43,292 nucleotides of DNA from a virus. The stretch's first letter is position 1; the number at the start of each line of letters is the position of its first letter. A model generated the notes under the pieces. That model was not told where the DNA came from. It made no database searches and was given only the letters and a program-made list of their open reading frames with translations. Below, one piece after another: positions 9,101 to 37,452 of this stretch. Position numbers and translations under genes: made by a program. The DNA lies in the IMG/VR virus record IMGVR_UViG_3300025362_000019, positions 1-43,292 of that record. One strand, given 5' to 3'.

Positions 9101-9538
9101 TATCATATCCCCTATTTTTGTAAAATCTAACGCGACGTATTGGCGTTGTAAAAACCGTTCGGGTTGCAAAGGGATATTGTCGCCGCCGACTAGTCGCGCT
9201 TCCGAATCAATCAGCGAAGTCGCCCAACCAAGGATCAGGGTTTGGATGATAACCCCTTGCTCCTTGACACTTTCTTGTGTCTCTACCAATGCTCCGCGCC
9301 ATGTTCCAGGGTATTTTACACCATTTACAAGAGGGTCTGTAACAGAATAATACTTCTGCCCGTTGCTAGGATTCTTCACACTGGTTCGCAATCGCAAAAC
9401 TTCTGATAACCCGGTAATGTATAGCGAATTTATTTGTGTCCATTTGCGTTTGAGCGTCCTATCCGACACAAGGCCGGAAACCTTCAAACCTTCAATGTCA
9501 TAAATTGCGTTCTGTTCGGAAATCTGTTCTAAGTTCAT
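6110..9538 (-). CDS. Giant modular virion protein with repeated beta modules (tail/fibre candidate)
   Basis: The product is 1142 residues. At least two modules of ~147 residues are clearly related; their DNA lies around 8330-7900 and 7890-7450. Each module carries GYxV, then GTGSA followed by V/I-V-R, then FEGERLT, YLGL(D/N)KTTADA, YKVD and VVQQL/IVQQL blocks. Degenerate versions of the GYKV and IVQ elements occur before and after them. There is no signal peptide. Its ATG overlaps the stop of the upstream GIY-YIG gene by four bases. The repeats resemble stacked beta-domains of tail fibres or spikes. However, the position directly after the adaptor-like gene (ignoring the endonuclease) is where a tail nozzle protein would be expected in podovirus-like phages. 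Confidence 0.75.
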   Translation of the reverse strand: MNLEQISEQNAIYDIEGLKVSGLVSDRTLKRKWTQINSLYITGLSEVLRLRTSVKNPSNGQKYYSVTDPLVNGVKYPGTWRGALVETQESVKEQGVIIQTLILGWATSLIDSEARLVGGDNIPLQPERFLQRQYVALDFTKIGDMIESIESTKYITNPVIEGKTYDGPITAPATTPSDLKWRILSSKPSRAADGSGIITQTLAKNLVQTPDELPTAILLSDDKALLSPFAHDTTSEKNIYVWEYRWIDPVYAQTLRDTIALTSDVIDAKAIKADDGSFNIQVLTHTNTWEGTLSQEWEHQTRHPTFAANQIINTYSHIALTSLAAFKVTLGTATSGYKVASLVDSTDAGGGFATIVQTQDKLFVGAVSATNGTTTDEEYLQLITSGVIRTTLWLGVPDGDLDAAMTTLSTAPSGYTVIRVGHNYSGTGSANVIRTMITKGDSTAEQIRIEFPLFEGERLTYNYLGLDKTTADALYVTLQTSTDADYKVDNVSIIEWRSALAVVQQLSKIMQTPSEDLGRTIAKEFEWWGDGEVITKKWLSIKDADLDTMLTTLAVEPAGYSVASISHNFNGTGSADVVRVVVKQNTDGFESAIEFPTFEGERLTNIYLGLNKTTADAQYVTSQTPPAGYKVDSVTKQQGARGTITIVQQLTKIQETPFTTSAVHQRVYTHAFGLVTRATTVYLSVPFASIDTVKDAINALADVIILNIADNDNGHGSADITYNWRTKESAPRALGSISSVKPSQFHQEAQERLWIDINLTDKDALATAVALALAGTAPYAVAAGDTIQSASGQDAGDKTGNIRQKISKKPASYTVAEYQTQVSINPHGLKEATMLVTVNEYPEIAYADLATIFSTLQTFLGDPMKGQIQVSLNSGGTFMMRGLKEGTPDWGNTTPDYVKVAIDNPDQIGERKHEVATGVPVASAAAIVAAATADADHAIDAIRMTERGNGEAIIEKVQTKKDGVAIYVEEKPTVGSRRGTKRTVWLNVHPDGLAAAWTAASTENVAGDYVLSYRKRIPKPNGFYDIENVAMDSVFVWNYQTTYYGWYNDTVTWQSYQHVHDTSDRWMCVKVVQSEYRGTSLATATTNYGNFAANTDSKSVAPRVIGLRNGFIIYQSIKITRTYSAWKSTAENGTHTGHGTWS

Positions 9539-10296
9539 TGAGATTTTACCTCGTTATTTTTGCGTAATTTCCAATATCTTTTGCTGGCCTCACCTATTTT
9601 TCGACGATGTTCAGGAGTTTTAATTTTGCCTTTAGCCGCTTCGCTCATCCTTGACCTGGTTTCTCGCGACCTTATCTTCCCCTTGCGAGATTCGCTGAGT
9701 TTCTTGAGCGTCTCTTTGGATGGGTGTTTCCCAGACATTGGGTTTTTGCTTCCCATCTTCGCAATGCTTAATTTTTGGCAAACCTCTTTTGAACGATGCG
9801 TTCCGTAAATCCAGTGATTTTTGCCTCTTTTGGCCTCACTCATTTTTTTACGAGTTTCAATAGAATGATGTGTCCCATATAAAGGGTGGTTTACTCCCCG
9901 AAAAGCCTCGCTCATTTTACGACGGGTTTCTATGGATGTAACACGTCTTTTTCTTGCTATACTTAATTTATTACGAGTTTCTTGAGAATGACGATGCCCC
10001 AATACACCATCTCCGCCATCGGTTTGATTTACCAGTCTCCACCCTTCGGCGCGTCCATATGCAATCCACGCACGTTCCTCCTTGCATCCATCACCCGCAA
10101 CCTCTCCGATAAGTTGTATTAGGGGCAGATGACCAGTAGACAAAACAGATCGCATCCAGTTGTAAAGATAAGTATTTTCACCTCGACGCGCATTATATAA
10201 ATGCGCCCAAAACCTTTTAGCAAGAGCACGAATAGTTTTGCCAATATATCTTATTTCACCATCTATCTCACAAATAACATATATTTTAGTTTTCAT
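9535..10296 (-). CDS. GIY-YIG homing endonuclease with NUMOD3 repeats
   Basis: Free-standing homing endonuclease of 253 residues from the ATG at 10296. A TTG six bases earlier is possible but less likely. The N-terminal GIY-YIG nuclease has IYV near residue 6 and RYIGKT near residue 17, with a conserved EERAWI segment (catalytic Glu) near residue 75 and VNxTxGG near 90. The C-terminal half is a string of NUMOD3-type DNA-binding repeats (SxETRxKxSEAxxG). It sits between two virion genes: it starts two bases after the adaptor-like gene's stop and overlaps the next gene by ATGA. It is a close paralogue of the enzyme at 17636-18577; the segment from the YNW motif to the VN motif is nearly the same. 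It probably acts as a selfish element that cuts related phage DNA. Confidence 0.93.
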   Translation of the reverse strand: MKTKIYVICEIDGEIRYIGKTIRALAKRFWAHLYNARRGENTYLYNWMRSVLSTGHLPLIQLIGEVAGDGCKEERAWIAYGRAEGWRLVNQTDGGDGVLGHRHSQETRNKLSIARKRRVTSIETRRKMSEAFRGVNHPLYGTHHSIETRKKMSEAKRGKNHWIYGTHRSKEVCQKLSIAKMGSKNPMSGKHPSKETLKKLSESRKGKIRSRETRSRMSEAAKGKIKTPEHRRKIGEASKRYWKLRKNNEVKSQ

Positions 10297-10298
10297 GC

Positions 10299-11180
10299 TC
10301 AATACCCAACAAGGTTGAGATTACTGGGCGTGCTCCGCGTCAAACTGCTACTTGAAAACATCATGTTTGGCCGCATTATGGGAACTTCGGGTTCCATCGC
10401 CTTCATCCTTCCCAAAGCCTTGTCGTAATCTTCGGTCATCCTGTCGGCCTGCCAGTCGCGCTTTACCATTGACAGCAACTTCTGTTCTGCCTTTATCCTG
10501 ACAGCGGCACAGTCACCAGGCAATTCTATTACATCTTCGTCCCTTGATAGTGGCAACGGCGTCTTGATATACGTTATCTCAACGTCAGTTGGACTTATCG
10601 CAACAGCCGACGGCCCTGAAAATGCCAGCACTGGCGTCCCGATAGGTCGTATGGAGAATATCGCCTGACTCTCGCTTACGCCACGGAAATAATCGGCTAA
10701 CGTAATTGACGATGTAGATGCCCACGCGCTAATCTTATATATGCCAGCGTTAGACCCTATGCGGATGTACTCGTTAGCGCAAGTCGTCGCGGGGAACTCG
10801 GCTGTGGCAGTAACCGCAGTCCCGTAATCGGCAACCACCAACGTCGTCCCTGACGCCAGCACAGTTGCTACCGGCGTATCCAAATACCAGTTATAATTGA
10901 ACGCCGAATACACGCTCTTACCGCCAACAAAATTATACGGCTGTTTGTTTTCGTCAATAACACGCAGTATCCGTAAGCAATCGGCTGGCACAATATAAAC
11001 GTCATCCGTTAGTGTTGCGGTTTTCTTCAACTGTTGCCACGGGTATGAGGACACCACTTCTTGATACGACTCATTCAGTTTGGACAGCAATGTCTTTTTC
11101 CATACTGCGTCCGCAGTGGTACGAGGATCATTCAGGCTGTTTGCAACTTGGTCTAATAATATTCCGCATGGTATGCTCAT
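10299..11180 (-). CDS. Putative head-to-tail adaptor protein
   Basis: The product is 293 residues and begins behind a GAGGTAAATT ribosome-binding site. The first 60 residues (SLNDPRTTADAVWKK, then LNESYQEVVSSYPW) match the general pattern of phage adaptor or tail-tubular proteins of the gp4/gp11 kind, whose helical start carries an N-E-x-Y pair and a Trp. A long beta-rich insertion follows, and then a helical C-terminus. In podovirus-like phages such a protein bridges portal and tail. The assignment rests on this weak pattern and the position in the late operon. Its stop is followed almost at once by the inserted GIY-YIG gene. Confidence 0.7.
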   Translation of the reverse strand: MSIPCGILLDQVANSLNDPRTTADAVWKKTLLSKLNESYQEVVSSYPWQQLKKTATLTDDVYIVPADCLRILRVIDENKQPYNFVGGKSVYSAFNYNWYLDTPVATVLASGTTLVVADYGTAVTATAEFPATTCANEYIRIGSNAGIYKISAWASTSSITLADYFRGVSESQAIFSIRPIGTPVLAFSGPSAVAISPTDVEITYIKTPLPLSRDEDVIELPGDCAAVRIKAEQKLLSMVKRDWQADRMTEDYDKALGRMKAMEPEVPIMRPNMMFSSSSLTRSTPSNLNLVGY

Positions 11181-14612: not shown

Positions 14613-17600
14613 TTACCATCCGAAATTGGCAGAGTTCGTTCCAAAGTGAAACAAACAATTTGAACCTTGATCCGTGATATAATTAGTGCCACCAAAATAA
14701 CAAGTCCCACCAGCAGGAAGATAAATTGCCACTTCATTAGTCAGCGGCCCCGTCATCGTTCCGCCCGTCTTCGGCAACGCCGCCGCCGCAAGTGCCTTCG
14801 TGTTCGTGTAGGCGTTGGAAACCACAAGGTCGGCTGCAATAGCAGCGTTGGAAACAACCGTGCCGACTGAATCAGCGTAGGCGAGCGCGGCATTAGATAC
14901 CACCGTACCCACGGAGTCGGCATAGGCAAGAGCCGCGTTGCTGACGACAGTTCCTACGGAGTCGGCATAGGCAAGAGCCGCGTTGCTGACGACAGTTCCT
15001 ACGGAGTCGGCATACGCAAGGGCAGCATTTGAAACGATTATGTCACCCGCCCCAAACGCATTGCTAACAATCGTCACCACGGCTTTGGTTGCAAGGTCAG
15101 GTGCACCGAAGTACACTTTCGTACCACTCACACGCATGACAACATTGCTCTCGCCGTCAAACGATACCGTGTTGGTTTCCTGTATGCTGTCGAGTGCCAC
15201 CAAATGCGCTTCCACGTTGGCGTCTGCGGTGTAATTCGTCGCCGTGAATGCCACGTTGATTCCGCTGGCGTTGGTCGTGCCGGTGCCGCCTGCCCCTGCA
15301 TTCGTCACACACCCGCTCAAGAGGCGTGTAACGGGGTCATAGGTCAGATAGTTGCTGGAACTGGCAACGGAGGTGAAGTTGGTCATGGATTGCAGGATGG
15401 AAGAATACGTCAGGTTGCTATATGCAATCGAATGTGGCTCATTAGTGATTGCCGCCGCCGCGTGTGCTTTCTCTGCCGCCGTCAAGTGCTGGATGTCCGC
15501 GCTCTCGTTATTCGTGTGGGCGGAAAAAGCAACATCAATCACACCTACCGTGCCGGTTGTGGCGTAGGCGGCGTCCGATTCGACCTTCGTATAAACATCG
15601 GTTACACCATATCCGCCAACACCAATAGTCGTCGGCGTGCCAGTCATCATGGCCCAATTTAAGAGATTCGTAGCCCAGTTACCCCAATTCCAAGCTATGA
15701 AAGCGTAATTTGTAAATCCGGCATTAGCCGTTATCTGCGTCTGTAGCGTATTCGTGCCGATGAAATTCGTGGCGGTAGAACCATCGGTTGCGCCCTGCGT
15801 CCATGACTGCGTGTCACCTGCGCTGATGGCGTAGGCTACGGAGGCGGTGAAGATGGGATCGGATTCGGCACGGACTACCGTTCCCGTGACAAACGGCACA
15901 TCGTTGTTATAGTCTGATAGGTTCGTGGATGTGGCCGCAAGGTCGTCATTATACTCGGATAGGTTCGTCCATGCACCTGCCTCGCCAGTTTTTATAAACC
16001 CATTTGTAGTGGGGATAGTCGGTGGGTTTGTAATCGTGTTATAATTAGGTTCATCCCACGGACGGGCGTTGGTCAGAGCGACAAGATAATCGGCATCGTT
16101 TGTCGCCACCGCCCCGGCCTGTGACGCCGTAACGCCGTGAGGGTTAGCCGTGTCAGCAATATGCACCGCAGGGTTGGTCATTATCGCGCCATAAGCTCGT
16201 ATAACTCCTCCTACATTCATGTCGCCAGCCGCATTGATAGTGCCCCCCGTGGAAGCCCTCACGTATATATTCGACGCATTGCATAGCGACAAACCAGAGC
16301 CATCGAGTTTTATCACTAAATTACTTCCAGTATCTTCAAAGGAGAAATAGTTGCTGTAATTGTTGACAGCAGTATGCGGCCCAAGCGTAAACCCAGCAAT
16401 CGAAAGCGTGGAAGTTCCACTTGCCCCGACCTTGCTGTAGCCGTAAACGTAAGTCTTTCCAGACACCAGCGCAGTAGCGCCAGTGTAAGCCACCGTAGTC
16501 AACGAGCCGGTATAAACTCCTTGCGTCAGTCCTGATATATTCGCGTCCAACTGAGAGCGATCAGCAACATAGAGGGAAGTAAAGATATTCGTGGCAGAAG
16601 TTATAAATCCTTGTCCAGACCAATCGCCCCACCCATAAGCAGTAATCCCATAGGCGGCTTGTGCCAACAAAGAGGCATTAGTCGCTGGCTGTGTCGTAAT
16701 TCGGAAGGTTTCATTTGACCCAATCCGAGATTCAAACTCCGTATTTGTAGTAGCCTGCGCCGTCACATGAGCGTTATACGTTACCAGTGAAACATCGCTT
16801 GTGCCATTCGCGGTAATCGCCGCCAGCAATGCCGCGTTCGTGGCCACCTGATTCGTCCGGAAAGTATAGACCTCGGTATTGGTCGCGGCTTGTGCGGCTA
16901 CATGGGCGTTATAGGTTACAAGCGATACGTCGCTGGTCCCGTTAGCCACTATTGCCGCCAATAATGCCGCATTGGTATTGGCCTGGGCTGTTGACAGGGT
17001 TTCCTCGGCTGCAATACGGGATTCATAGTCAGCGTTAGTGTTCGCCTGTGCGTCAAACTTCGCCTGGAATACCACACTGGTTGCGTTGGCGGATGCGAGG
17101 TTGGCGGTGATTTGGCTTTGGAGCGTGTTAGTGTCAAAATCGCTCCACGGCAAATTTCCAATCGAAGTCAAAATATCCCAGTTCACGCGATTATTCAAAT
17201 CCCAAATAGTAGTTGATCCTGAACTCGGGGATTTCTTTACCCTTACCAAACCCTGCCCGCTTGTTATTTTTGTGGAACCATTTTGCAAAAATATCTCGCC
17301 AAAATAATCGCCTGAAGCTGGAAATGCGTTCGTGGCACAATTAAAAGTAACCACCCCAGTTGCCGCGTTCACGGTTCCGGTAATTGTTTTCAAGGCAGTA
17401 GCATAATCCGATTTAGAATAATTAAATTCCGCTGACCACCCCGCGCCAAGTCCAGTAAAATTGCTTCCGCCCGATTGGATATTTACTGTAATGGTAGGCG
17501 TATTACCTGCATAGGTTTGCACCTCGAAAACACTGGGAATTTCTGTGTCTACGCTAAATGTAATAGAAGGAGAAGCCGCAAAAAGAGAAAGCGCAAAAGA

Positions 17601-17639
17601 AAATATAGAAAATAAAAACCAACATAATGTTTTTTTCAT
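14613..17639 (-). CDS. Tail fibre protein with signal peptide and internal repeats
   Basis: The product is 1008 residues. It starts with a Sec-like signal peptide (MKKTLCWFLFSIFSFALSLFA). An N-terminal beta domain follows that resembles the BppU-type fibre-attachment domain (SVDTEIPSVFEVQTYAGNT). The long Asn/Thr/Ala-rich shaft contains two ~44-residue repeats (NGTSDVSLVTYNAHV) and, near the C-terminus, four copies of a 15-residue unit (VVSNAALAYADSVGT). Just after these stands LPKTGGTMTGPL, a well-known phage fibre motif preceding the receptor-binding tip. The start codon overlaps the stop of the upstream GIY-YIG gene by ATGA. It probably recognises the host, with the LamG and DUF1566 proteins acting beside it. 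Confidence 0.88.
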   Translation of the reverse strand: MKKTLCWFLFSIFSFALSLFAASPSITFSVDTEIPSVFEVQTYAGNTPTITVNIQSGGSNFTGLGAGWSAEFNYSKSDYATALKTITGTVNAATGVVTFNCATNAFPASGDYFGEIFLQNGSTKITSGQGLVRVKKSPSSGSTTIWDLNNRVNWDILTSIGNLPWSDFDTNTLQSQITANLASANATSVVFQAKFDAQANTNADYESRIAAEETLSTAQANTNAALLAAIVANGTSDVSLVTYNAHVAAQAATNTEVYTFRTNQVATNAALLAAITANGTSDVSLVTYNAHVTAQATTNTEFESRIGSNETFRITTQPATNASLLAQAAYGITAYGWGDWSGQGFITSATNIFTSLYVADRSQLDANISGLTQGVYTGSLTTVAYTGATALVSGKTYVYGYSKVGASGTSTLSIAGFTLGPHTAVNNYSNYFSFEDTGSNLVIKLDGSGLSLCNASNIYVRASTGGTINAAGDMNVGGVIRAYGAIMTNPAVHIADTANPHGVTASQAGAVATNDADYLVALTNARPWDEPNYNTITNPPTIPTTNGFIKTGEAGAWTNLSEYNDDLAATSTNLSDYNNDVPFVTGTVVRAESDPIFTASVAYAISAGDTQSWTQGATDGSTATNFIGTNTLQTQITANAGFTNYAFIAWNWGNWATNLLNWAMMTGTPTTIGVGGYGVTDVYTKVESDAAYATTGTVGVIDVAFSAHTNNESADIQHLTAAEKAHAAAAITNEPHSIAYSNLTYSSILQSMTNFTSVASSSNYLTYDPVTRLLSGCVTNAGAGGTGTTNASGINVAFTATNYTADANVEAHLVALDSIQETNTVSFDGESNVVMRVSGTKVYFGAPDLATKAVVTIVSNAFGAGDIIVSNAALAYADSVGTVVSNAALAYADSVGTVVSNAALAYADSVGTVVSNAALAYADSVGTVVSNAAIAADLVVSNAYTNTKALAAAALPKTGGTMTGPLTNEVAIYLPAGGTCYFGGTNYITDQGSNCLFHFGTNSANFGW
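14847..15041 (-). repeat. 45-bp tandem repeat within the tail fibre gene
   Basis: Units of 45 bases start at 14847, 14892, 14937 and 14982, with a partial fifth copy from 15027. The 14937 and 14982 copies are almost identical at the DNA level and the outer ones have drifted. Each unit encodes 15 residues, so copy-number changes keep the reading frame and would lengthen or shorten the fibre shaft. Confidence 0.9.
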
Positions 17640-18577
17640 ACCACCCTCTTAGATTGAAAATAACGTAAAAGACTATTGCTTATTTTTTTACGATATTCGG
17701 GAGTCATTCTCTTTTTGGTTGTTTCACTCATTCTGCATTTTAATTCGTCCGAGGCATGACAACCTTGTCTTGGATGTCCCTTTGCAGCAAATTGCCTTAA
17801 GGTCGCTTCACTTATTTTTTGACGAGTTTCTGCTGACTGATGTCTTCCCAAGTTTGCCAACCCTATTTTTCGTCTGGTTTCTTCGGAAAGATGTTTGCCA
17901 TAATTAAAATGCTTTTCACCTTTATGAGATTCCGACATCCTTCGTTTTGATTCTTCAGAATGATGTTTTCCTGAAAGGGGATGTCCATTTTGAGCTAATC
18001 GTGTTTTTGTGAGTTTGCTTAATTTTTGACGTGTTTCTATAGAAACAATACGATTTCTATTCGCTTTTGATATTTTACGTCTTTGATCTATTGAAATTAT
18101 TTTTCCTTTATTTCCTAATCCTATTTTACGGCGGTGTTCTTTGGTGAAATGTTTCCCTTTTTTAGCCAATGACATTTTAAGCCGAGACTCTTCTGACCGA
18201 TGAGTTCCTAAGCAGCCATTGGGCTTGCCTACATGAGAATCATGTAATTTACGACGTGTTTCTTCCGAAGGATTTAATATCCCTTCTCCACCTGAAGTAG
18301 AATTTACAAGTCGCCATCCCTCACCCTTGCCATAAATAATCCAGGCACGTTCTTCATTGTTTCCATTACCTATGACTTCGCCAATTAGTTGTATCAGGGG
18401 AAGATGACCAGTGGATAATACGGAACGCAACCAATTATAAAGATGATTTTGGTCGCCACGACGAGCAACATAAAGATGACTGCCCAACCTTCTTACAAGA
18501 GAATTAACGGTCTTGCCGATGTATCGGATTTCAGCAGTAGGTGAGCAGAGGGCGTATATCTTTGTCATCATCGCCAT
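17636..18577 (-). CDS. GIY-YIG homing endonuclease with NUMOD3 repeats
   Basis: This product has 313 residues from ATG 18577, placed six bases after AAGGAGGG; an ATG at 18583 overlaps the ribosome-binding site and is less likely. The N-terminal GIY-YIG domain has KIYAL, then RYIGKT, EERAWIIYG and LVNSTSGG. It is followed by at least eight NUMOD3-type repeats (SEETRRKIGLANLG style), more than in its paralogue at 9535-10296. It lies directly before the tail fibre gene and overlaps its ATG by four bases, so it may be translated along with the late message. It is probably a mobile homing gene, free-standing and not inside an intron. Confidence 0.93.
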   Translation of the reverse strand: MAMMTKIYALCSPTAEIRYIGKTVNSLVRRLGSHLYVARRGDQNHLYNWLRSVLSTGHLPLIQLIGEVIGNGNNEERAWIIYGKGEGWRLVNSTSGGEGILNPSEETRRKLHDSHVGKPNGCLGTHRSEESRLKMSLAKKGKHFTKEHRRKIGLGNKGKIISIDQRRKISKANRNRIVSIETRQKLSKLTKTRLAQNGHPLSGKHHSEESKRRMSESHKGEKHFNYGKHLSEETRRKIGLANLGRHQSAETRQKISEATLRQFAAKGHPRQGCHASDELKCRMSETTKKRMTPEYRKKISNSLLRYFQSKRVV

Positions 18578-18605
18578 GAGCATCCCTCCTTCATCAGGAA
18601 AGAAC

Positions 18606-23079: not shown

Positions 23080-23108
23080 TCTATACCATATTTTGCGGTG
23101 GATGTCAA
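23080..23108 (-). promoter_or_regulatory. Promoter for the scaffold-capsid block
   Basis: TTGACA (23108-23103), a 17-base spacer ending in ATATGG, and TATAGA (23085-23080) lie in the 116-base gap before the scaffold-like gene. The same ATGG-TA arrangement recurs at the other promoters of this genome. Its place just before the scaffold and capsid genes fits the need for extra capsid mRNA. Confidence 0.7.
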
Positions 23109-23601: not shown

Positions 23602-24384
23602 TTACGCTCCAAGAGCCACACGTTGCGTTTTGTATTGTTCCCATTCTTCCATCGTTCTATCGTTCTTTTGGCAATTGTCTTTTGCCCATAAAGGTTGCAA
23701 GTTAGCTAATGCCCAACACACACGAAATTCTTGATCTTCTGGATGCTCATAATGAAATCTTGCTTTGGGTACGATGTGATCAATTGCCCACCCATCCTTG
23801 CCGTAATTATCCCATGACATTCCATCAGTAAATTTTGATTCAAGATGAGCGTGCAATTCTCCTACCGTGTAACCCACCAACAACTCCCACGAACGACCTG
23901 CTTTATTACCACGTATGGCAAGATAAATTTGAGAACTCATGCTATCATCTAACCTCCCCCTTGGGGTTAAACGTCTTTTTTTGTCATATTCACGATGTGA
24001 CAGCCTGGCTCTTTCTAAATTATTTCGTGTATATTCCGAATGATAACCAGGATGATTTAATTCCCAAACTTTTTTCTTTTCCATCATTCTTCCAAAATTA
24101 TTTTGCTTCCATCTTTTGGAGGTTTCTTTATATTTTGACGAGTTTTTAGATACACATTTCGCCTTGCTTTTTTTGTGTTTTTCGTAATTGTTTTTCTGCC
24201 ATTTTTTAGAATATTCATTACATCTTTTCCGATGAACCTTCTGCCGATGATTAGTGTCTTTAATACTACAAACCTTGCACCAACTATTTATTCCTTCTTT
24301 CTTTGATTTGTTTTTGAAAAATTCCGAAAACGGTTTTGTTTCTCCGCACTTTGAACATCGCTTTAGTTTTGGGTTGCTTTCCAT
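23602..24384 (-). CDS. HNH homing-type endonuclease with N-terminal zinc finger
   Basis: The product is 260 residues. The N-terminus has a CxxC...CxxC zinc site (C10, C13, C36, C39). A long, extremely Lys/Arg-rich helical linker follows (KKWQKNNYEKHKKSK and similar repeats), and then a C-terminal HNH nuclease: WAIDHIVPKARF, CWALANLQPLW and KDNCQK. This layout is common in phage homing endonucleases. Its ATG overlaps the portal stop by one base (TAATG), so it rides on portal translation. It is AT-richer than its neighbours, which fits recent arrival. Confidence 0.9.
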   Translation of the reverse strand: MESNPKLKRCSKCGETKPFSEFFKNKSKKEGINSWCKVCSIKDTNHRQKVHRKRCNEYSKKWQKNNYEKHKKSKAKCVSKNSSKYKETSKRWKQNNFGRMMEKKKVWELNHPGYHSEYTRNNLERARLSHREYDKKRRLTPRGRLDDSMSSQIYLAIRGNKAGRSWELLVGYTVGELHAHLESKFTDGMSWDNYGKDGWAIDHIVPKARFHYEHPEDQEFRVCWALANLQPLWAKDNCQKNDRTMEEWEQYKTQRVALGA

Positions 24385-26235: not shown

Positions 26236-26841
26236 TTAATGTTTTATGAACATTCCCTTTGGTGTTCGTTTCCAATTTTTACGTCTTTTAGACATCTCAA
26301 TTATTTTTTCCTTAGTAAAAACATGTTTTCCCTTATTGGACTCTCGAATTTTGAGTTTAGTTTCTTCGGAATGATGTTTGCCTTTATTCCATCCTGGTTT
26401 CCCGGCAAAAAAATTACCATCTCTGGCGTTTCGTATTTTTGCAGACTCGCTCATTTTACGACGCGTTTCAAGTGAAAAAGTTTTCTTTTTACTTGCTTTT
26501 GATATTTTAAGACAAATTTCTTTGGAGTAACGTTTATTCTTATTTCCGCCACTGGTCATATTGTATCCATGTTTTCTATCCATGCTTTTATAATATGTTA
26601 TCCAAGCACGTTCTCGAACATCCAACATATTTTCACTTGTTTCCTCAAGTATATGAAATTCAAAATTGGATTCACCATATTTTAAGAAAGCATCTTGAAA
26701 ATGTTTGTTGCGATGTTTGCGTGATCGCAATGCCCAAAGATGCAAAACCCTTCTTTTCCTAATATCAATACTCTGCCCAATATACCATTTCCCATTTATA
26801 ATATTACGAAAACCGTATATGCCAATTTTTTTAGTTTTCAT
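26236..26841 (-). CDS. Classical GIY-YIG homing endonuclease
   Basis: This product has 201 residues. It has the canonical motif: GIYG at 7-10, WYIGQS at 19-24, catalytic Glu 77 in RERAWI, and YNMTSGG near 93. It ends with NUMOD3-like repeats (SLETRRKMSESA, SEETKLKIRES). It is a different lineage from the other three GIY-YIG enzymes here, closer to the Seg/I-Tev type. It sits between large terminase and portal, with gaps of 18 and 13 bases. There is no clear ribosome-binding site, so translation may depend on the terminase message. Confidence 0.93.
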   Translation of the reverse strand: MKTKKIGIYGFRNIINGKWYIGQSIDIRKRRVLHLWALRSRKHRNKHFQDAFLKYGESNFEFHILEETSENMLDVRERAWITYYKSMDRKHGYNMTSGGNKNKRYSKEICLKISKASKKKTFSLETRRKMSESAKIRNARDGNFFAGKPGWNKGKHHSEETKLKIRESNKGKHVFTKEKIIEMSKRRKNWKRTPKGMFIKH

Positions 26842-29681: not shown

Positions 29682-29710
29682 ACACTACCATAACACAGGA
29701 GAAAAGTCAA
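29682..29710 (-). promoter_or_regulatory. Leftward promoter of the late operon
   Basis: TTGACT (29710-29705), a 17-base spacer ending ATGG, and TAGTGT (29687-29682) precede the first late gene by about 27 bases. The spacer end and -10 (ATGGTAGTGTGTTT) closely resemble the divergent rightward promoter (GTGGTAGAGTGTTT), suggesting that both are read by the same polymerase. Confidence 0.65.
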
Positions 29711-29725
29711 GAATAAAAATAGTTG

Positions 29726-29754
29726 TTGACAAAACTGGTCTCTTGTGGTAGAGT
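29726..29754 (+). promoter_or_regulatory. Rightward early promoter
   Basis: A perfect TTGACA (29726-29731), a 17-base spacer and TAGAGT (29749-29754). Transcription would start near 29761 and run through the structured leader into the CHC2/HNH/primase genes. It diverges from the late promoter, with the -35 boxes 15 bases apart, so one bound regulator could affect both. Confidence 0.75.
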
Positions 29755-35991: not shown

Positions 35992-36019
35992 TTGACTTAT
36001 TTGAGGAATATGGTATGAT
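35992..36019 (+). promoter_or_regulatory. Promoter before the structured leader and GIY-YIG gene
   Basis: TTGACT (35992-35997), a 16-base spacer ending ATGG, and TATGAT (36014-36019). It starts right after the SleB stop. Transcription would begin around 36026, inside the closing stem of the predicted leader fold. Confidence 0.65.
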
Positions 36020-36081: not shown

Positions 36082-36114
36082 TCTCAATCTATGGCAACTG
36101 TATGGAGTTGTATT

Positions 36115-36867
36115 ATGAAAACCAAGCTGTATGTTCTCCGCGACGAAAACTGGCTCATTCGTTATGTAGGCAAAACTGTTAAGCCATTGCGAGACAGGAT
36201 GTACTCTCATATTTATAGCGCAAAAAGCGGCGAAAACACCCACAAAAGCAGATGGATTCGTTCTATGCAAGCAAGAGGGTTTTTACCAAACATCGCACTT
36301 ATAAGAGAGGTAGACGGAGACGGATGCCAAGAAGAAAAAGATCAAATTAAGTTTTTAAGAGAAAAGGGAATAGATTTAGTGAACACAACTATTGGTGGAG
36401 ATGGAGTTATGTCGGGGAGAAAAATGTCGGAAGAATCTCGAAGAAAAATGAGTCTGGCACGTAAAGGAAAACGGCATTCTTCTAAATGGAATAAAAAAGT
36501 AGGAATTGCCAACAAAGGAAAGGTGCGATCACAAGAAATGAGAAAAAAGCTAAGTTTGGCTAATTTAGGGAAACGGCACTCAGAAGCAACAAAAGAAAAA
36601 ATGCGGATAGTTCAGTCAAATAGAGCGGAGCGACGCAGAAACAGAACGACTTCTTTAAAGGGTAAAAAGCTTTCAGCGGAACACCGCAAGAATATAAGCA
36701 TTGGAAGAATAAACGGTAAACATCGTTCAGCAGAAGAAAGGGCAAAAATGAATCAAGAGAAAAAGAATGTTCCGCTTTCCAAAGAACATTGCAAAAGAAT
36801 TAGTGAAGCCAGCAAAAAGTCATGGAGAAATCAATACAGTTTAAAAAGAGAAGGAGACGCAATATGA
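36115..36867 (+). CDS. GIY-YIG homing endonuclease with NUMOD3 repeats (early region)
   Basis: The product is 250 residues from ATG 36115, with GGAG nine bases upstream. The nuclease domain has KLYVL, then RYVGKT at 16-21, a CQEEKDQIKFL segment with the catalytic Glu and VNTTIGGDG. It continues with six or more NUMOD3 repeats (SEESRRKMSLARKG style). It belongs to the same family as the two late-region paralogues but is clearly more diverged and lies on the opposite strand. The stop overlaps the next gene's ATG by four bases. Confidence 0.93.
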   Translation: MKTKLYVLRDENWLIRYVGKTVKPLRDRMYSHIYSAKSGENTHKSRWIRSMQARGFLPNIALIREVDGDGCQEEKDQIKFLREKGIDLVNTTIGGDGVMSGRKMSEESRRKMSLARKGKRHSSKWNKKVGIANKGKVRSQEMRKKLSLANLGKRHSEATKEKMRIVQSNRAERRRNRTTSLKGKKLSAEHRKNISIGRINGKHRSAEERAKMNQEKKNVPLSKEHCKRISEASKKSWRNQYSLKREGDAI

Positions 36868-37067: not shown

Positions 37068-37270
37068 ACTACGCGCCGTTGAAAGATACGCTCCAAGTGG
37101 GCGACAAGATTGCTTGCACCAAGCATTACGTTAAAGCCGAAGTGCTGGAAGTATTTAAGGTGGACGGCGAGCGCGTCTATTGTATGCGGAATAATGGCAA
37201 CGCCGTGACCGATCCGCTAACTGTCGAGCTATTAAAGTCTTATGACTACGTGAAAATAATCGAAAAATAA
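37064..37270 (+). CDS. Small beta-domain hypothetical protein
   Basis: The product is 68 residues, behind GGGGGAAAC and starting in an ATGA overlap. It is predicted to be mostly beta (LQVGDKIACTKHYVKAEVLEVFKVDGERVYCM). It may be a diverged neighbour of the 67-residue protein. No family is recognised. It ends four bases before the next promoter's -35. Confidence 0.58.
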   Translation: MNYAPLKDTLQVGDKIACTKHYVKAEVLEVFKVDGERVYCMRNNGNAVTDPLTVELLKSYDYVKIIEK

Positions 37271-37273
37271 CGC

Positions 37274-37302
37274 TTGACTTTTGTGTGTGTGTGTGTTAGA
37301 CT
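37274..37302 (+). promoter_or_regulatory. Promoter whose spacer is a (TG)7 repeat
   Basis: TTGACT (37274-37279), a 17-base spacer TTTGTGTGTGTGTGTGT (37280-37296) and TAGACT (37297-37302). The spacer holds seven TG units (37282-37295), so polymerase slippage would change the spacing by two bases at a time. It drives the zinc-ribbon peptide and what follows. Confidence 0.7.
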
Positions 37303-37329
37303 TCTTTTACAAATAGGGAAGGAGTCTAT

Positions 37330-37452
37330 ATGGATAAAAAACCGAAATCTATAACTGGTTGCCCATTGTGCTATTCCAAAAACATCTGGACTAATAAATC
37401 GGGGGTAAAACATTGTCGTAGATGTGGCCATTCATGGGGCAAAACAAAATGA
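37330..37452 (+). CDS. 40-residue zinc-ribbon peptide
   Basis: ATG 37330 lies behind GGGAAGGAGTCTAT, a strong site, and the frame ends at TGA 37452. The sequence contains C-P-L-C and C-R-R-C-G-H, the two halves of a zinc ribbon (SITGCPLCYSKNIW, then KHCRRCGHSWG). It is the first gene after the TG-tract promoter. It probably binds nucleic acid or a protein partner. Confidence 0.65.
   Translation: MDKKPKSITGCPLCYSKNIWTNKSGVKHCRRCGHSWGKTK

Follow-up and report, generated by a model that had tools for sequence, protein, structure and literature searches.

Positions 37274 to 37302 of a virus record carry a putative promoter in which the segment between the −35 and −10 hexamers is filled almost entirely by a TG repeat. 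What, if anything, does this repeat do? The original prediction for the site was phase variation, wherein slippage of the dinucleotide tract would alter promoter spacing and thereby switch a phage accessory operon. We have evaluated this and other explanations by analyzing the complete 43,292-base virus record, hereafter the window, to which all coordinates refer unless another sequence is named (Table 1).

Results

The TG run resides in a probable member of a phage promoter class

Direct reading of the sequence confirmed that the hexamers TTGACT and TAGACT are exactly 17 nt apart and that the intervening bases are mostly TG. The spacer, TTTGTGTGTGTGTGTGT, has the form TTT(GT)7, with (TG)7 followed by a T, and it also supplies the TGn of an extended −10 element, wherein TGT immediately precedes the −10 hexamer. 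Taken alone, the hexamers are weak. They match nine of 12 consensus bases, and sites with this degree of match are in modest excess over shuffled sequences (20 found, 12.2 expected in 10 kb).

Sites across the whole window, on either strand, were ranked by a position-weight scan that used textbook promoter frequencies and serves for ranking only. The 37274 site came second, between those at 29726 (+) and 35992 (+). These top three sites are all intergenic and are oriented with their genes. The site at 29710 (−) was seventh in the scan and stands back to back with that at 29726, where the two arms of the genome diverge. Five sites (37274, 29726, 29710, 35992, and 23108) are alike beyond their hexamers, and these define a promoter class by a TGn before the −10 and by a start-site block. 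This block, RAAYRRGG, lies at a near-fixed distance in the five promoters, 36 to 38 nt after the start of TTGAC. The extended pattern AAAATA-N4-TTGAC occurs three times in the window (at 29716, 35982, and 37264), always on the + strand and in intergenic sequence, where 0.017 occurrences are expected.

When the 37274 site was omitted from a model of the class, it ranked fifth among 86,434 positions, below the four training sites only. Its leave-one-out score was 32, and the best nonmember under the full model scored 17. The site has a TTGACA-like −35, a spacing within the 16 to 18 nt range, and the TGnTAnnnT form, as expected for sigma70 promoters with an extended −10. Given the features shared with other promoters of this phage and the leave-one-out rank, there is a very high probability that 37274 to 37302 is a genuine promoter of the sigma70 type. 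Together with the orthologous site described below, these observations lend good support to the portion of the original prediction that called a promoter with a TG-run spacer. A scan of viral contigs with the class pattern recovered the general strong sigma70 form and no relatives.

The RAAYRRGG block begins at an A located 7 to 8 nt past the −10, and therefore we infer that transcription from the 37274 promoter starts at about A37309.

Table 1. Features of the window relevant to the 37274 promoter, and homing-endonuclease-like genes
Feature	Coordinates	Strand	Remarks
Upstream gene, 68 aa	37064..37270	+	Homologous to L140 16142-16351
AAAATA box	37264..37269	+	4 nt upstream of −35; resembles a proximal UP element
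−35 hexamer	37274..37279	+	TTGACT
Spacer	37280..37296	+	17 nt
(TG)7 tract	37282..37295	+	
−10 hexamer	37297..37302	+	TAGACT
Predicted RNA hairpin	37297..37328	+	UAGACUUCUUUU/GGAAGGAGUCUA; 12 bp (9 Watson-Crick, 3 G-U), 8-nt loop
Predicted transcription start	37309	+	A, 7 nt after −10; conserved start-site block
Shine-Dalgarno (SD) sequence of the 37330 gene	37319..37325	+	AAGGAGT
37330 gene	37330..37452	+	40-aa CxxC...CxxC zinc-ribbon-like protein; weak zinc-finger family matches only
Same-class promoter, head of rightward arm	29726..29754	+	TTGACA-17-TAGAGT
Same-class promoter, head of leftward arm	29682..29710	−	TTGACT-17-TAGTGT
Same-class promoter before GIY-YIG gene	35992..36019	+	TTGACT-16-TATGAT
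Same-class promoter-like site upstream of 22314-23054 gene	23080..23108	−	TTGACA-17-TATAGA
Homing-endonuclease-like genes	9535..10302; 17636..18583; 26236..26841; 23602..24384	−	
Homing-endonuclease-like gene	36091..36867	+	

Spacer length, rather than the repeat, appears to be conserved in a related phage

A relative of the window, contig L140, was reached through its helicase (59% identical) and is collinear with the window from the helicase to 38777. Over the shared stretch, contigs L141 and L142 match L140 exactly, and thus the arrangement is present in just two distinct phages. Directly after the homolog of the 37064 gene, L140 has an orthologous promoter, TTGACA-TTCTGGACTTTGTGTGG-TATTCT, whose spacer is likewise 17 nt. 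The distance from TTGAC to the ATG is 56 nt in both phages, and their sequences align here without gaps. Counting TG units in related phages had been proposed as a check on phase variation, and the L140 spacer has no TG run at all. As judged from these two promoters, it is length that is conserved and not the repeat.

Other searches were less productive. No close relatives were found among viral contigs queried with RecT, the 37484 protein, and the exact TG-promoter string, nor were relatives found among genome contigs queried with RecT and a gapped flank pattern. The phage collection, queried by DNA and with the 37330, 37484, helicase, and 37785 proteins, yielded nothing, and its exonuclease matches were to Akkermansia phages only, which at 24 to 28% identity are too distant to help. 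Separately, a methyltransferase-like gene (L140 15535-16145), recognized by reading of its DPPW motif, lies between the L140 homologs of the 36864 and 37064 genes.

Phase variation is an improbable role for the TG run

No other dinucleotide run in the 43,292 bases reaches five units. An order-2 Markov model built from the window predicts about 1e-4 (TG)7 or (CA)7 runs, and the tract is the sole period-2 array listed by TRF. This run, far above chance, falls exactly within the spacer, which is where simple repeats reside in repeat-spacer phase-variable promoters such as those with the hif TA-repeat and porA poly-G spacers (PMC3899988). If the promoter were phase variable, six or eight TG units would create spacers of 15 or 19 nt and lower expression of the gene, and the hairpin described below, which adding or removing TG units would not disturb, would stop read-through from masking the off state. 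The seven units also exceed the cutoff used in one phasome screen, wherein dinucleotide tracts of at least six units were candidates for phase variation, although its authors warn that such cutoffs also admit tracts that perhaps switch too rarely (PMC6321876).

Several observations weigh against this explanation. The TG run is missing from the orthologous L140 promoter even though the 17-nt length is kept, and no second allele of the tract was found among viral contigs searched with the exact TG-promoter string or genome contigs searched with the gapped flank pattern. Contig L002, which matches 20 kb of the window at 99.995% identity, gives no tract allele because it ends at 37097, 185 bases before the tract. 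The tract is short, and the 37330 product is not a surface protein. Furthermore, slippage changes the spacing alone and leaves the extended −10 intact, and the gain or loss of one unit may therefore reduce promoter activity without eliminating it. In light of the repeat-free ortholog, the retained 17-nt length, and the lack of a second allele in these searches, phase variation is not supported, and we consider it unlikely.

We favor another role, wherein the TG run would be a spacer under length constraint, probably expanded by slippage and tolerated because it preserves the TGn of the extended −10 as well as the 17-nt length. A repeat that catches the eye can be the lesser part of a regulatory site.

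Similar spacers exist elsewhere. The pattern TTGAC-(TG)6-TANNNT was present in 12 records of the phage collection, representing seven distinct loci versus two for a scrambled control. This is suggestive of recurrence, but the counts are small and some loci are not promoters. Among these, the locus in contigs L004, L007, and L011 was rejected as a promoter because a gene ends there (its 3′ end). These contigs are 99.8% identical and differ by one TG unit at this position (six versus seven), an example, by sequence comparison, of a short phage TG run that has slipped in nature. Such a polymorphism would be in keeping with phase variation, but it is at an unrelated locus and outside any promoter. 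A promoter-like site in L006 (at 1511) and L014 (at 2914) has a TG run of about 10 units and 20-nt spacing. The two contigs are identical there, and the site is possibly an off-length variant.

The −10 region is predicted to pair with the SD of the downstream gene

Immediately after the spacer, the RNA is predicted to form a hairpin, overlooked in the original prediction, with a folding energy of −12.3 kcal/mol (z −3.85; none of 200 shuffles as stable). Its 5′ arm begins with the −10 and ends one base before the predicted transcription start, such that TAGACT forms the outer half of the arm and A37309 is the first base past it. The 3′ arm contains the SD of the 37330 gene. In the predicted read-through RNA, the core of this SD is unpaired with a probability of 0.002, the lowest among 31 right-arm genes, and the occlusion of the wider SD was equalled by four of 2000 shuffles of the upstream 60 nt. 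An RNA begun at 37309 lacks the 5′ arm, and its SD has a predicted unpaired probability of 0.40 to 0.76, which is only partly open in some contexts.

A counterpart of 9 to 11 bp is predicted for L140, where the pairing partners are the −10 region, UAUUCUUCU, and the SD with the bases that follow it, AGGAGGAUA. The L140 SD core is unpaired with a probability of 0.001 and ranks first of 32 in its right arm when, as in the window, a uniform 6-nt core is used, whereas a wider SD window places this gene third of 30. Six of 1500 shuffles matched the L140 occlusion, and the predicted unpaired probability of the SD is 0.011 in read-through RNA versus about 0.79 in promoter-started RNA. Controls were less occluded (probabilities of 0.20 to 0.66), including the genes of the four other class promoters, with the paralogous 29710 leader among them, and those of three unrelated TG-spacer promoters.

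Between the two phages the arm sequences differ and the SD has shifted, together with the 3′ arm, by about 3 nt, and therefore the predicted pairing is kept although the sequence has changed. Because of this shift, we do not claim strict column covariation. The stop codon of the upstream gene is 27 nt from the stem in the window, and 27 to 32 nt across both phages, which exceeds the usual reach of a terminating ribosome. A search of Rfam gave no match. The stem was also considered as a terminator and rejected, since no T run follows it on either strand.

Could the hairpin nevertheless be incidental to a plain promoter with an unremarkable TG-rich spacer? Pyrimidine-rich starts might pair with purine-rich SDs by default, and indeed the start regions of the class are T-rich, and shuffles equalled the occlusion at a frequency of about 0.002 to 0.004 in the individual tests. 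However, the same outlier appears in L140 despite its different arm sequences, the −10 hexamer itself is paired in both phages, and other leaders of the class have no such fold. We therefore regard an incidental hairpin as unlikely.

The genes behind the promoter differ in the two phages

In place of the zinc-ribbon-like gene of the window, the gene behind the L140 promoter encodes a 52-aa protein with a weak match to Arc-like repressors (phrog_2639, E 0.0019). Since these downstream genes are unrelated, it is the promoter-hairpin unit that has been retained while the gene behind it changed. Both products could be small nucleic-acid-binding regulators.

This resemblance to nucleic-acid binders, including the Arc-like match, is compatible with the main structural rival to an RNA hairpin, namely that the inverted repeat is a DNA operator through which the small protein represses its own promoter, and in each phage some two helical turns separate the arms. 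However, RNA is favored by two observations. Where the repeat departs internally from symmetry, in the window and in L140 alike, the RNA strand has a G-U pair, and the 3′ arm follows the SD. The half-site TAGACTTCTT also has no further close copies above chance in the window. On balance, an operator seems distinctly unlikely.

Translation may be tied to initiation at the internal promoter

Given the arrangement of the promoter and the predicted hairpin, we consider it likely that 37274 is an internal operon promoter and that translation of the 37330 gene is tied to transcription starting there. The site would be an internal sigma70-type promoter of the rightward operon, and its −10-to-start region would double as the 5′ arm that hides the SD. 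The promoters at 29726 and 35992 read toward the 37330 gene, and terminator scans were unspecific. Read-through mRNA from these promoters would carry the entire hairpin and leave the 37330 gene untranslated. In contrast, mRNA begun near A37309 would start past the 5′ arm, such that its SD is open and the gene is translated. With the former blocked and the latter open, output of the gene would be coupled to its own promoter.

We infer that this arrangement most likely serves to place one gene under its own promoter in an operon that is otherwise read through, since no late sigma factor is apparent here. The 37274 promoter resembles those upstream, and no timing switch of the phage T4 type is evident. 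It is highly improbable that a slippable TG run and an insulating ribosome-binding-site hairpin together form a phage switch for a small regulator. If this were true, phase changes would silence the regulator despite operon read-through and create heritable variation among the progeny of one phage.

Additional features of the window

This 43-kb phage has five free-standing homing-endonuclease-like genes, four GIY-YIG/NUMOD3-like and one HNH-like. That at 36091-36867 was identified by family search, and the other four by reading and mutual similarity. One GIY-YIG/NUMOD3-type gene on the − strand (17636-18583, start 18577) has a strong SD, GAAGGAGGG, that is predicted to be buried by a short local hairpin (unpaired probability 0.013), which is reminiscent of the control of T4 homing endonucleases. 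A large structural gene contains 2.4 copies of a 45-bp in-frame repeat (14911-15020), and a short ORF at 33904-34317 matches an ArdC N-terminal (antirestriction) domain (E 1.1e-8).

Discussion

Extended −10 sigma70 promoters with a proximal UP element are a known general type. The class described here has the same TGn, TTGAC, 16- to 17-nt spacer, and upstream A-rich box, to which it adds the phage-specific start-site block RAAYRRGG. As in the hifA/hifB promoter of Haemophilus influenzae and the porA promoter of Neisseria meningitidis, a simple repeat occupies the spacer at 37274. Here, however, the promoter serves a phage gene and keeps its extended −10 upon slippage, and the L140 ortholog lacks the repeat.

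The closest parallels are found in T4-type systems. For the T4 genes e, soc, 49, and I-TevI, long early transcripts bury the ribosome-binding site, whereas the start points of late transcripts exclude the 5′ arm (PMC3014915, PMC2988022). In these cases, as well as in segB and in mobE of Aeh1, the SD is hidden in a stem of the read-through RNA, and folding predictions place the SD in a stable read-through stem in both the window and L140. The T4-type promoter resides in the 5′-arm region and makes a transcript without the arm. The same is predicted at 37274, where the −10 itself is part of the arm. Here the promoter is of the sigma70 type, like those upstream of it, rather than a T4 late promoter, and the gene is a small zinc-ribbon-like ORF in an unrelated phage. 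T4 provides the best-known case of start-site-dependent translation, the timing of which derives from a phage sigma factor. A version that uses a host-type promoter, from an environmental phage unrelated to T4 and with small genes that differ between the two relatives, would point to a general means of keeping one operon gene under the control of its own promoter.
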